Below, in pieces: positions 1,756-16,700 of a stretch of DNA of 64,000 nucleotides; positions within the stretch are counted from its first letter, which is position 1; each line of letters opens with the position of its first letter. The notes beneath the pieces were generated by a model that saw only the letters and a program-made list of their open reading frames with translations, made no database searches and was not told the DNA's origin. The DNA is taken from contig OZ004595.1 in the NCBI GenBank assembly GCA_963924555.1, positions 5,388,599-5,452,598 on the forward strand, read 5' to 3'. This DNA is from Crambe crambe. Its lineage: Eukaryota > Porifera > Demospongiae > Poecilosclerida > Crambeidae. The position numbers were made by a program, and so were the translations under genes.

Positions 1756-4700
1756 GTTGCCGTAGCTGTGAAGACCCTCTATGGCAGACAAGAAGTGCAG
1801 AGTCTCTTCATCAAAGAAGCGAACTCCATGACGTCTCTAAACCACAAACACATCATCCAGCTCTATGGCATTGTCCTTTCCCAGCCACTCATGCTGGTGA
1901 GTCAGTGGGTGTGGTTTACAAGGGTGGGCCAATTTTAAGTCCTGAGTGCATTGAAGAATAGGAACAGAATGAAGTGAGTCCTGGACACCCTCTCAATGCA
2001 CTGAAACCACTTTTGGAACGTTTTTTGGGGGGGAACAGAATGAAGTCTCCGTGTGCTCTTGATGCACTGAAGCCACTTTTAGAATGTTTTTGGGGGAGTC
2101 TCCATATTACCTCATATTTCATGGAATGATATCGTGTGTTCCATTGAATCCCAGGAAATGAGGGAGCCCAGAGAATGTTGAGAGGGAGACATTTGCTATA
2201 GAAACTTGACCATGGAAGTGAAGTAATATGGAGACTTCATTCTGTTCCCAGAAAAGTATCTTCAATGCAATGAGAAGGCATTTGCTATAGAGCCCACTTA
2301 GAGAGGTTCTGTCATATAATTTTCAGTACAGAGAGTATGTTCCATAGTGATATCACCTGACTTCAGTGTGACCTTTCCTTGGTCTACTTCCATATCTCTG
2401 TCATATAAGGTGCATTAAAATCCAGAGGATATATTCCATAGTAATCAGTGTGACTTTTCCTTGATCCACCCTTGGTCTCCATAGTCATATAGGGTTCATG
2501 ATATGTTCCCATAGCAATCAGTGTGACCTTTATCCTAAACTGTTGTTGCTTGTACATAATGTCATGCATACTAACAAACAGATTGAGGAACTGGCAGCAT
2601 TTGGCAGTCTTTATGGATACATCCAGAAGGAGGGCAAGAGTCTTACCTTGCAGCTGTTCCACACTTATGCCTATCAGATTGCAGACGCCATGTCTTACCT
2701 GGAGAGCAGGAGGATCATTCACAGAGACCTTGCCATCCGAAACATCCTTCTGGCCCATGTGGACTATGTGAGTGGAATACATTATGACTCAAGGGAAGTG
2801 AGGTTTCTCTGTCGGGTTTCTCTCTCAAGGAAGGTGGTGGGGCCCTGTTAGATTTTTCTGTCATGTCAAGGAGGTGGGGTTTCTCTGTCAAAAAAGAGGG
2901 GTTTCTCTGCCAAGGAGGTGGGGTTTCTCTCAAGAAAGTAGGGTTTCTCTGTCAAGGAGGTGGGGTTTCTCTCTCAAGAAGGTGGGGGGTTTCTCTCAAG
3001 AAAGTAGGGTTTCTCTGTCAAGGAGGTGGGGTTTCTCTCAAAGGGGTGGGGTTTCTCTCTCAAGAAGGTGGGGGTTTCTCTCAAGAAAGTAGGGTTTCTC
3101 TGTCAAGGAGGTGGGGTTTCTCTCAAAGGGGTGGGGTTTCTCTCTCAAGAAGGTGGGGGTTTCTCTCAAGAAAGTGGGATTTCTTTGTTAGGTATTGTCC
3201 AGCAAGTTGTTTGTTGTTGTTGTTGTTCGTTTATTTGTTTGTTTTTGTCATTTATTTGGGGGGGTGGAGCTAAAGCTGATCTCTACCCATCGTGATTCAG
3301 CAATTGTGTTTGAAGGAATGTGGTGTTACTGATGTCAAAAGGCATAAAGTACAAATGTAGCTACTACACTCAACATACAAACATGTATTCAGATAAGTTA
3401 ATCTCACACATTACAACAGTTATGCTTCTTTTCTACCTATGAGTGCCATGGCAGCCACTCATTGATTCTCCATTATCCAGTTGTTGTCCAGATCAGTCTC
3501 TTCTTCCCTAATATGGAGTATAATTACTATATTAATGCATATACTAGCTCGAGGCTTACTTCAGTTTTTCTGTGTCTGTTCTCTTTTCATGACTTTTTGT
3601 CCTTTTGCAACATTTGCAACCAATGACCACTGCGATGATGAAGATGATGGCTATTAGAACTGCTGCAGGTATACCAATCGCTATGGCAATAATCACTTCA
3701 ATACTTAGTCCGCAACCAGATGGTGGACATGAGGTTGTGGTTGTCGAGGGAATTGTAGGTGGGGTTGTGGCTGTTGAGGGAATTGGGGGTGTGGTTACCA
3801 AAGGTGTAGTAGGTGGGACTGTGGTCTCCGAGGGTGTACTAGGTGGGGCTGTGGTCTCTGAAGGTGTAGTAGGTGGGGCTGTGGTCTCTGAGGGTGTAGT
3901 ACGTGGGACTGTTATCTCCGAGGGTGTAGTAGGTGGGGCTGTTGTCTCCGAGGGTGTAGTAGGTGGCGGTGTAGTTGCCGAGGGTGTAGTAGGTGGGGCT
4001 GTGGTCTCGGAAGGTGTAGTAGGTGGGACTGTGGTCATTGAGGGTGTGGTCTCCGAGGGTGTAGTAGGTGGGGCTGTGGTCTCCGAGGGTGTAGTAGGTG
4101 GGGCTGTTGTCTCTGAGGGTGTAGTAGGTGGGGCTGTGGTTGCTGAGGGTGTGGTAGGTGGGACTGTGGTCTCCGAGGGTGTAGTAGGTGGGGCTGTGGT
4201 CTCTGAGGGTGTAGTAGGTGACAGTGTAGTTGCCGAGGGTGTAGTAGGTGGGGCTGTGGTTGCTGAGGGTGTAGTAGGTGGGGTTGTGGTTATGTCTGGG
4301 GGGGGGGGGGGGGGGAGAAAGAGAGGTAGCCTAGATGTAGGATTATGCATATTCCTGCTTACTATCTTGTTCTGCAAGTACAACTATTGAAGTTGCTGTG
4401 TACATGTAATGAGTTATAATCATGTGGGGCAAGCACTGTTACTAAAATCCAGGATGTTGTTACTTGCGTACCACATGTGAAGTTGTCTGTATTTAGTGTC
4501 CTTCCTGCTGAGCAACTGGCCACACACAAGTTGTCTTCAACGTAATTGCAGCAGTCAGTAAAACTTATGCATTCCCTCAGTCCGACACAACTCGAGGAGC
4601 AAGCTGTTCAATAATAAAAGAACTGGTTTATATAGCATAGAGAAAAGGGTCTCTCTCCCTCTCTCTCTCTCTCTCTCTCTCTCTCTCTCTCTCTCTCTCT

Positions 4701-13700: not shown

Positions 13701-16700
13701 AATGGTTACCAACATCACATGGTTACTAACATCACGACATCATTATCATGATGTAGGTTAAGTTGAGTGACTTTGGCATGGCACGAGTTCTCGATGAAAA
13801 CAGTGAAGAATACAACCTATCAAACTTGGCAGCACGGATACCTATAGCATGGTTGGTAATCTCTTAGGATAGTTATCAGTGATCTCTTAGGATTCCCCCT
13901 GTATAATCTATTAGGATACCCCTCAGTAATCTCTTAGGATACCCCCTGTATATCATCAGTAATCTATTAGGATACCCCTCAGTAATCTCTTAGGACACCC
14001 CTGTATATCATCAGTAATCTATTAGGTATCTGTTTAAAAAAAACAATGTTGTCATAGTAATTATCTCAACAGGACTGCCCCTGAAGCACTGACCACAGCA
14101 AAGTTCTCGTCTGCTTCTGATGTTTGGAGTTACGGCGTCTGTCTCTGGGAGATCTACTCCATCGGCAAGAAGCCGTGGAAAGGGCTAGGTCCCGTGGAGA
14201 TCCGTGACATCATCATGGAAGGCCAGAGGTTAGGACGACCTGAGAGATGTCCAGAGGACATTTTTGACCTGATTCAGTTGTGCTGGAAGGAAAATCCTCA
14301 AGATCGACCAACCTTTGCAGACATATACAGACAATTGCAGTTTGTAAGTCTTGTAAATGAATTTCACTGTTTTGAACTAATGTTGACAATACAAATGCCG
14401 TCTTTTCACTGCAGCTACCTCCGAAGCAGGTGAGGGCTATAAAGTCTCATACAATCCAAGATGAGCCAAACTGCCTCTCCTTCAGACCAGGAGACCTCAT
14501 TTATATCATTAGCAAGTGAGCAATCATAATGAAGTTCCCCCTCTCCCCCTCTCCCTCCCTTTCCCTCGGCATTTAGCATTCTCATGCCCCAACTCTGTTA
14601 TGACTATTTGTTAATGAATTAATAAGGGATAAGCCAACAATGAGTTAGGACTCTGTTACAATTCTTGGAATTAAGGGAGTATTTTGACCCTGCCAATAAT
14701 CTTCAGTATCAGTACTTAGAATGGGGCATACACTACTCACTGGTCATTTCCTGACCAGCATTTTCCCAGGAATGGCCATCAAATTACAGTATGGTAATAT
14801 CTCCAAATAATGCACACACTTGGGACCCATCTTTTAGTCCTTTGTAGAGAGGTTATCCTCTTTTGGAGGTCATTTCGTATATACAAACATACCTTAGATC
14901 ATCTTTATGGAGAAGCTTATCCTCTTTCGGAGTGCCCTTTCTATTGTGTTTTCAGGTGTGGGATATCTCTACTCTTACTTTTTTTCCCTTGCGTTCTATT
15001 AGGCCGAATGTTGAGTGGTTGAATGGTATGAAGACAGACGGTTCCTTTGGGCACTTCAAATCCGAGTTTGTGACAGAAATACTGAACCCCGTTGACGATA
15101 TCCGAGCCAAGTTGGCCTCAGGACAGACCAGCGTCTCGGACATCGTTATAGGTTCACCCACGCATGTGGATCACATGACCCACTACAACAAGGATGGAAG
15201 CAAATGGGTCTCAGAGAGTGCAGATGAATTGTGAGTTTGAAATGCTGGTCACTTGTCGTTATTCGAATAATTAAAGGGATCTAGTATTCCTTATACAATA
15301 GATTGCCCTAGCTCACATGCTTAGGCTGCTGACATTGTCTAAATGCTTTATGGTTAATAAGCTGTAACTCGTTCATTCTTTGTTAATCTTGCATCTCCTG
15401 CTCAAAGTTTTGTTTGGGGTGGATGTGCCTTTGACAATCCTTACCATTTATTTATTTTTTTTATTTTTTATTTTTGCCCTTGAACGACCCTAGTAATCAA
15501 TATCTTATCCCATATATTAACAGTGACCTGGGTCCTCCACCAGTGAGTTCTAGCAAGAAACGTCCATACTCGTCCTCGTCCCCTCCTGTCCCCACTTCCC
15601 CCCCATTCAGAGTCATTGATGCTCGTAGTCCCAGCCCCAGTCAAGGTAACCTCCCTAACAATATATGCACTACTGTTCCATATAACTCTCTCTCTCTCTC
15701 TCAGCTGATTCAAACAAGAGCAGTGCTAGTAATTCAATGGTGTCTCCTCTCCTTCAAGGCACCATAGCCAGTAGCAGCACACCCTGGCCAGACAACACTA
15801 TCTCTAACTCCCCTCATCCTTACCAAATCCCCACTCCGAAACTCATAGATGTGGACGACCCAGATTATAGCAAGGGTGCAGGAAACGAGGATAAGAATCA
15901 GTCCAGTGCCCGCAAAGACCACTTCGTTTACGATGACTCAGCTGACAAGGCAGCTATGAAAGACATGGATGACAATAATCAATACGTCGCCATCACTCGA
16001 ACGAGTATTCTCAGTCCAGCACAGAGGGAGGAGTTGGCTCTTAAAGAGAGAAGTATTAATATTGGAGGAGGTGAGAGACCATCAGAATTTTCCGACACCT
16101 ATGTCACGATGCAGTCCTGTTCGGTCAGACTACAGAAACTTATGAATGAAAGTGCCAGTACTGATGATCTAGAATCAAATGATACTGCAGACACTAGCAG
16201 TGGTGCTGTGGGAGGGAGTGTCCAACATCATCCTCCGGATGCTAGCAGTGGTGCTGTGGCTGGAAGTGTCCGGTATAACCCTTACATTAACTACCCAATA
16301 ATAAATAGCACAGATACAGTGTCCTCTGGTGTAGACAAACCTTCAACTTCGTACGAGCCTCCTTACGTCAATCATCCCAGGAACAGTACTGAAGCTTCAG
16401 GAACAGCATTCAGCAATTCCCAGGCTCTCAGTAGTATTACCGAGTTAAGCCAAAACACCACACCCCCCAGCCCCAGAAGTAATACAATAAGTGCTGGTCA
16501 TGTGACCAACATGTCCTCAAGTCCAAAAGTACTTTGCTCCAGCGCTTTGAATGATCCGTATTACGTCAACAAGCGTCGATCGGCCACTATGGCCTCGTCT
16601 TCTTCTAATGCTTCACATTACGACATCCCCCGTAAGCAGTCTTTGTTAGACTCGGATATTACAGCAATCCACTCCAACCTTCCCGACCCTATCGCTCCTG

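Follow-up and report, generated by a model that had tools for sequence, protein, structure and literature searches.

How do four related genes for surface proteins come to lie inside one intron of a signalling kinase gene, on the opposite strand, and does that position matter to what they do? The question is raised by a 64,000-nucleotide (nt) stretch of the genome of the sponge Crambe crambe (assembly GCA_963924555.1, contig OZ004595.1, C18:5388599-5452598), hereafter the window, which carries an ACK/TNK kinase gene on its plus strand; searches covered the whole genome (143 Mb in 119 contigs). The answer favoured here, with moderate confidence, is that the nested genes represent a short, stalked, catalysis-free branch of a larger receptor family, that their products may act as adhesive co-receptors or decoys, and that their nesting is incidental.

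The four nested genes are predicted models whose splice sites were picked by motif and frame. All are encoded on the minus strand, in the transcription order D (11542-9250), C (8885-7474), B (7071-5947) and A (5283-3459), with the following exons:

11278..11542, minus strand: gene D exon 1 (gene model, head alignment)
11046..11213, minus strand: gene D exon 2 (gene model, head alignment)
10745..10876, minus strand: gene D exon 3 (gene model, PDB profile search)
9374..9650, minus strand: gene D exon 4, stalk and helix (gene model, hydropathy)
9250..9313, minus strand: gene D exon 5, tail (gene model)
8615..8885, minus strand: gene C exon 1 (gene model)
8380..8550, minus strand: gene C exon 2 (gene model)
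8145..8273, minus strand: gene C exon 3 (gene model)
7566..7854, minus strand: gene C exon 4, stalk and helix (gene model, hydropathy)
7474..7504, minus strand: gene C exon 5, tail (gene model)
6801..7071, minus strand: gene B exon 1 (gene model, head alignment)
6567..6734, minus strand: gene B exon 2 (gene model, head alignment)
6281..6412, minus strand: gene B exon 3 (gene model)
5947..6152, minus strand: gene B exon 4, short stalk, helix and tail (gene model, hydropathy)
5013..5283, minus strand: gene A exon 1, signal peptide and first half of the head (gene model, head alignment)
4787..4957, minus strand: gene A exon 2, second half of the head (gene model, head alignment)
4472..4603, minus strand: gene A exon 3, cysteine-rich module (gene model, PDB profile search)
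3560..4295, minus strand: gene A exon 4, long Thr/Pro stalk and membrane helix (gene model, hydropathy)
3459..3507, minus strand: gene A exon 5, tail (gene model)

Exons 1 and 2 encode a signal-like N-terminus and a head, exon 3 a cysteine-rich module, and exon 4 a stalk and a helix, and introns 1-3 are of phase 1 in all four genes. An identical gene structure had been proposed in the initial annotation; this holds for introns 1-3 and needs refinement at the 3' end, where A, C and D possess a fourth intron of phase 2 and a small tail exon, and gene B ends in exon 4. Each gene has its own ATG, hydrophobic N-terminus and stop codon, with all four frames open, and the proteins measure 258-452 residues, with 14 cysteines ahead of the stalk in each. 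The stalks range from 33 residues in gene B to 206 in gene A and are 63-75% Thr, Ser or Pro (75% in gene A). In every protein a single segment stands out as strongly hydrophobic, with a Kyte-Doolittle mean of 3.0-3.7 over its best 19 residues; a cytoplasmic phosphatase domain is absent, 16-36 residues being left after the best helix window. The initial description of complete antisense paralogues with a signal-like N-terminus, a cysteine-rich part, a mucin-like stalk, a single helix and divergent tails is borne out and, since each unit has its own start, stalk, helix and stop, the four are at the sequence level not exons of one gene. Exon 1 is 92-97% identical in DNA across the six pairs, and a 300-nt repeat occurs four times in the host intron, three copies being 86-97% identical to the fourth. 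Runs of more than 30 C or G are present on the minus strand at 10462-10502 (gene D intron 3) and 5673-5706 (between A and B).

The host gene was modelled from these features:

1756..1896, plus strand: ACK/TNK kinase exon, VAVAVKTLYG..QPLML (splice sites, frame, PF07714)
2582..2767, plus strand: ACK/TNK kinase exon with the catalytic loop HRDLAIRN, ending in HVDY (splice sites, frame, PF07714)
2768..13756, plus strand: host intron, 10,989 nt (gene model)
2844..3183, no strand: 22-nt minisatellite (family D3) starting about 75 nt past the host donor site (repeat analysis)
13757..13851, plus strand: ACK/TNK kinase DFG exon, VKLSDFGMARVL.. (splice sites, frame, PF07714)
14073..14343, plus strand: ACK/TNK kinase C-lobe exon (PF07714, gene model)
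14415..17491, plus strand: remaining modelled host exons (14415-14515, 15003-15230, 15524-15645, 15705-17491), encoding SH3 followed by a long C-terminal stretch in which UBA_7 matches below threshold

When the eight modelled exons (1756-17491) are joined without intron 2768-13756, 976 codons are open before the first stop, in a frame that excludes the upstream SAM exon and Gly-loop exon. Four donor positions were compared for the DFG exon; one keeps the frame open and three lead to early stops. The modelled introns measure 685, 10,989, 221, 71, 487, 293 and 59 nt, the large one running from GT to AG and the other six spanning 59-685 nt. An unbroken PF07714 match extends across both sides of the large intron (E 1.2e-76, profile positions 30-258 of 258), obtained with a kinase sequence assembled by hand from the flanking frames that differs slightly from the later model at the SH3 junction. 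Given this single match and the open joined frame, the exons on either side look like parts of one ACK/TNK gene rather than of two, and the position first assigned to the array, between the catalytic-loop and DFG exons, stands. A SAM_TNK match (E 6.5e-10) lies on the same strand upstream of the window and an SH3_2 match (E 1.7e-6, Pfam) within the gene, giving the order SAM_TNK, tyrosine kinase, SH3 found in ACK/TNK kinases. An exon with the loop GEGAHGAVWEG was read by eye between the SAM_TNK and kinase exons; searched alone, it matched no Pfam family. The UBA_7 match in the C-terminal part reaches 14.6 bits, below the cut-off of 27.

According to these gene models, the four paralogues lie within one host intron, share one orientation and run opposite to the host, and the array accordingly belongs to the nested antisense clusters. 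The human genes OMG, EVI2A and EVI2B encode cell-surface proteins and, unlike the nested four, are not known to form a tandem family of one origin. These three genes lie on the opposite strand inside a single NF1 intron (PMC4394429), a layout similar to the present one in that several opposite-strand protein-coding genes share an intron of a gene involved in signalling; MOB2 with its KRTAP5 paralogues is a related case (PMC4394429). The same layout is described in insects, where the second intron of Flo-2 contains twelve GMC oxidoreductase genes, all transcribed in one direction and opposite to their host; these paralogues have protein identities of 27-69%, are accompanied by one unrelated gene and are conserved in four insects (PMC1891103). 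Both clusters consist of tandem, co-oriented paralogues inside one large intron of an unrelated opposite-strand gene, but the sponge array contains four surface proteins whose exon 1 DNA is 92-97% identical, whereas the insect cluster contains twelve enzymes. The TipE paralogues, which encode channel auxiliary subunits, are likewise nested in one intron, the last of CG18675, but in mixed orientation and, in flies, with one unrelated gene among them (PMC3240667). Since the Flo-2/GMC cluster has been described, the array represents a further case of a known kind of nesting, and the suggestion of a new layout is not sustained. Nested genes are also documented in sponges. In Aphrocallistes they make up 12.4% of all genes; elsewhere their number is 0 in Ephydatia, 83 in Oopsacas, 3358 in Amphimedon and 5032 in Sycon, figures that according to the authors vary with the annotation method (PMC10282587).

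The head appears to be the more distinctive element. Genome searches located it at 24 or more places (a lower bound), one of them with in-frame stops: nine on C1, five on C15, four on C18, three on C12, two on C11 and one on C14. Four further traces were not counted: at C11:5221843 a fragment of 35 residues, on C3 a piece of exon 3, and weak matches to exon 2 on C10 and to exon 3 on C19. DNA matches at C12:460-490 kb and C18:1.26 Mb were rejected as family members because they share the stalk repeat only. The largest group comprises eight head members on C1 at 7.76-7.82 Mb. As 20 of the 24 places, which may or may not be nested in other genes, lie outside the array, the idea that nesting is required for expansion was dropped, and the distribution likewise lends no support to the earlier proposal that the intron is a protected site for expansion. 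Six cysteines are invariant in an 11-row alignment of the head. Its profile gave no significant PDB match (best complement factor H, E 0.7), SLAM was the only Pfam family to appear in searches with 11 members (in one, at E 0.028), and the gene B protein matched no Pfam family up to E 10. The titles and abstracts consulted on nested genes, on cysteine-rich allorecognition receptors, furin-like receptor kinases and FnIII/sushi phosphatases of sponges, and on the sushi/immunoglobulin receptor expansion of Amphimedon do not name the head, which is weak evidence of novelty. Judging from its sequence, the head is apparently an uncatalogued extracellular module.

The segment encoded by exon 3 is similar to the furin-like cysteine-rich module of the insulin and ErbB-2 receptors. 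A profile of 10 rows, all present in the genome, was compared with the PDB, and 23 of the 35 matches up to E 1 fell between E 1.3e-4 and 1.7e-3, all of them ErbB-2 or insulin receptor; the best values (1.3e-4 for ErbB-2, 6.9e-4 for the insulin receptor) are modest and cover about 40 residues. In Pfam searches with single members, GF_recep_IV was matched by one of ten (E 0.0071), NCD3G by one of ten (E 1.6), and no family by gene B.

What follows this shared front part differs among members. The exons behind the head were read at 10 of the 20 non-nested places, where they encode Sushi or EGF domains and not a stalk. At least one domain is backed by Pfam at six of these (C12:332, C12:346, C12:6758, C15:338, C1:7802 and C14), and the assignment is by eye at the other four (C15:335, C15:340, C15:358 and C1:7807), the one stretch tested at C1:7807 giving no Pfam match. 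Pfam supports EGF behind exon 3 at C15:338 and C12:6758 and Sushi at C1:7804 kb; the C14 member shows Sushi by eye and, further on, Ig by Pfam. Neither gene B nor the 11 head members match the SRCR domain in Pfam, unlike the receptors of the Amphimedon SRCR expansion, which are comparable as tandem-expanded modular receptors (PMC10855680).

The closest relatives of the array are two heads on C12, at C12:332918 (minus strand) and C12:345859 (plus strand), which are 85-89% identical to gene B over exon 1. In a tree of 21 of the 24 head places, which omitted C15:362 kb (in-frame stops), C1:7811 kb (gap-split head) and C11:5223 kb (no start) and whose output carries a long-branch warning, the four nested rows and the two C12 rows cluster together with support of 89/91. 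Behind both C12 heads lie Sushi repeats on the same strand, two in the minus-strand series and one in the plus-strand series (Pfam E 3.2e-15 and 4.9e-8), followed in both by Ig and FnIII exons. The minus-strand series continues, by eye, into a membrane helix and receptor-phosphatase-like juxtamembrane sequence and then into phosphatase matches at C12:317147-316728 (6.9e-41) and C12:315944-315672 (2.9e-25, with one in-frame TAG). Provided that these exons are spliced together, as their strand and order suggest, the stretch from C12:332918 to 315672 likely encodes a receptor tyrosine phosphatase with head, cysteine-rich module, two Sushi, Ig, FnIII, helix and two phosphatase matches. Such a protein would be similar to Ig/FnIII receptor-type tyrosine phosphatases but would add the head, the cysteine-rich module and Sushi in front, whereas the nested genes have none of the receptor-phosphatase domains behind the cysteine-rich module. 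Read by eye, the plus-strand series (C12:345859 to 363345) closes with a helix followed by a tyrosine-rich tail. This tail has nine tyrosines or more, some of them in the motifs YEEI, which is favoured by the Src SH2 domain, and YEEV, and it contains NQCPxYVPxQP three times. The next gene is convergent, on the minus strand, and encodes FnIII and phosphatase domains.

Comparison of the array with C12 at the DNA level also indicates where the nested genes depart from their relatives. Homology covers exons 1-3, introns 1 and 2 and patches of intron 3 (in C and D) and ends before the stalk and Sushi exons, which points to intron 3 as the probable site of the recombination that brought head and stalk together. 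Among the nested copies, B and C are very similar in front (97% in exon 1, 95% in intron 1, 96% in exon 2, 95% in intron 2 and 93% in exon 3) and less so towards the 3' end (86% in intron 3, 79% in exon 4). There the highest identity is that between C and D, by margins that are partly small (90% in intron 3, 88% in exon 4, 93% in intron 4). This mosaic would fit a history in which the front halves of the tandem copies were swapped by unequal exchange or overwritten by conversion. In the mature portion of exons 1-3, nonsynonymous divergence (dN, 0.029-0.104) is below synonymous divergence (dS, 0.113-0.260) in all six pairs, by the Nei-Gojobori method without a significance test. In the nested genes and those on C12 the head is interrupted by intron 1, 55-66 nt long (6735-6800 in gene B, where it is in frame and stop-free), and many head relatives have a single open frame across its site; intron 1 was therefore gained or lost within the head family.

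Taken together, these observations suggest a scenario in which family members share the head (exons 1-2) and the insulin-receptor/ErbB-like module (exon 3), with phase-1 exon ends in the nested genes, and carry behind them Sushi, EGF, Ig/FnIII, or a Thr/Pro stalk and helix, depending on the member. Head exons, kin at the DNA level to those of the C12 receptors, would have landed in the kinase intron and been fused, at a point within intron 3, to an exon for stalk and helix. The resulting gene would then have been duplicated in tandem to give four, whose heads probably stayed alike through exchange with neighbouring copies as stalks and tails diverged; this history is read from sequence, its direction and order being deduced. 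It is most likely that the nested proteins share their type of ligand with the C12 phosphatase and the tyrosine-tailed receptor; at the membrane they may act as adhesive co-receptors or decoys, with no catalysis of their own. Their antisense position within the kinase gene is most likely incidental.

Several points weigh against this scenario. The structure model of the head, predicted from the window sequence alone, is of low confidence (mean predicted local distance difference test score, pLDDT, 35; predicted template modelling score, pTM, 0.29), and the tree does not resolve a clade made up of the nested four without the two C12 heads. The C12 exons are linked across introns by strand and order, with phase read by eye at one head-to-Sushi junction only; the C12 sequence was read down to 317101 except for C12:320001-322000, and a Copia-like element on the opposite strand interrupts the plus-strand series between its Sushi and Ig exons. 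Upstream homology to the minus-strand C12 copy extends only 36-89 nt before the ATG in A, B and C, and the DNA comparison found none for D and none with the plus-strand copy, which does not demonstrate a common promoter. Gene conversion between the nested copies is deduced from their mosaic identity and the common ligand from sequence; the direction of copying between the array and C12 is presumed.

A more specific arrangement, possible though doubtful, is a paired-receptor system in which the phosphatase, the tyrosine-tailed receptor and the four stalked forms would compete for or present one ligand and produce opposing or silent outputs. It is unlikely that the array instead encodes polymorphic receptors for self/non-self or microbe recognition, diversifying like allorecognition or immune clusters. 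The tandem arrangement, the mosaic identity and the spread in stalk length would all suit such receptors, as would exon 2, where dN equals dS in B-D (0.167/0.163) and nearly so in C-D (0.176/0.197), and the merely mild constraint on exon 1 in B-D (0.064/0.094). However, the excess of dS over exons 1-3 in every pair argues for constraint, as does exon 1 alone, where dN is also below dS (0.006/0.131 in B-C), and the analysis covers a single genome.

Regulatory coupling, akin to the shared regulation suggested in the initial annotation, in which antisense transcription of the kinase through the array would bring about mutual repression or coordination, has the geometry in its favour, as a full-length kinase pre-mRNA would be antisense to all four genes. 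It nevertheless appears quite improbable, since the present analysis yields no positive evidence for it, the head family is found elsewhere in the genome, and the TipE cluster is reported to be poorly correlated with its host gene (PMC3240667). More improbable again is a role as structural surface mucins, in which the stalk would be the working part and the head an anchor to matrix or mucus; the stalk of gene A would suit this, but that of gene B is very short, conservation lies in the head and the cysteine pattern, and Sushi or EGF takes the place of the stalk at the non-nested places that were read. Very improbable is the view of the array as decaying, functionless copies or an assembly artefact. 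Tandem repeats borne in introns can be passive, and the gene models derive from sequence; however, four open frames with matching splice sites and dN below dS speak against decay, and the copies differ in every compared segment, so that the array is not simply a doubled assembly.

The nesting is a further clear case of a known kind, and the possible importance of the locus lies in the head. Should the stalked proteins and the phosphatase turn out to bind common ligands, the family would offer a natural set for studying the origin of paired receptors outside the classical immune families. Elsewhere in the genome, tyrosine phosphatase arrays occur at C9:2.6-3.4 Mb, C12:2.5-3.2 Mb and C13:3.6-3.9 Mb, with at least 183 matches genome-wide (150 of 601 candidates scored), and tyrosine-kinase arrays at C16:5.4-6.05 Mb, with many long open frames, and at C5:2.99-3.28 Mb, with short frames often containing stops (150 of 1041 candidates scored).

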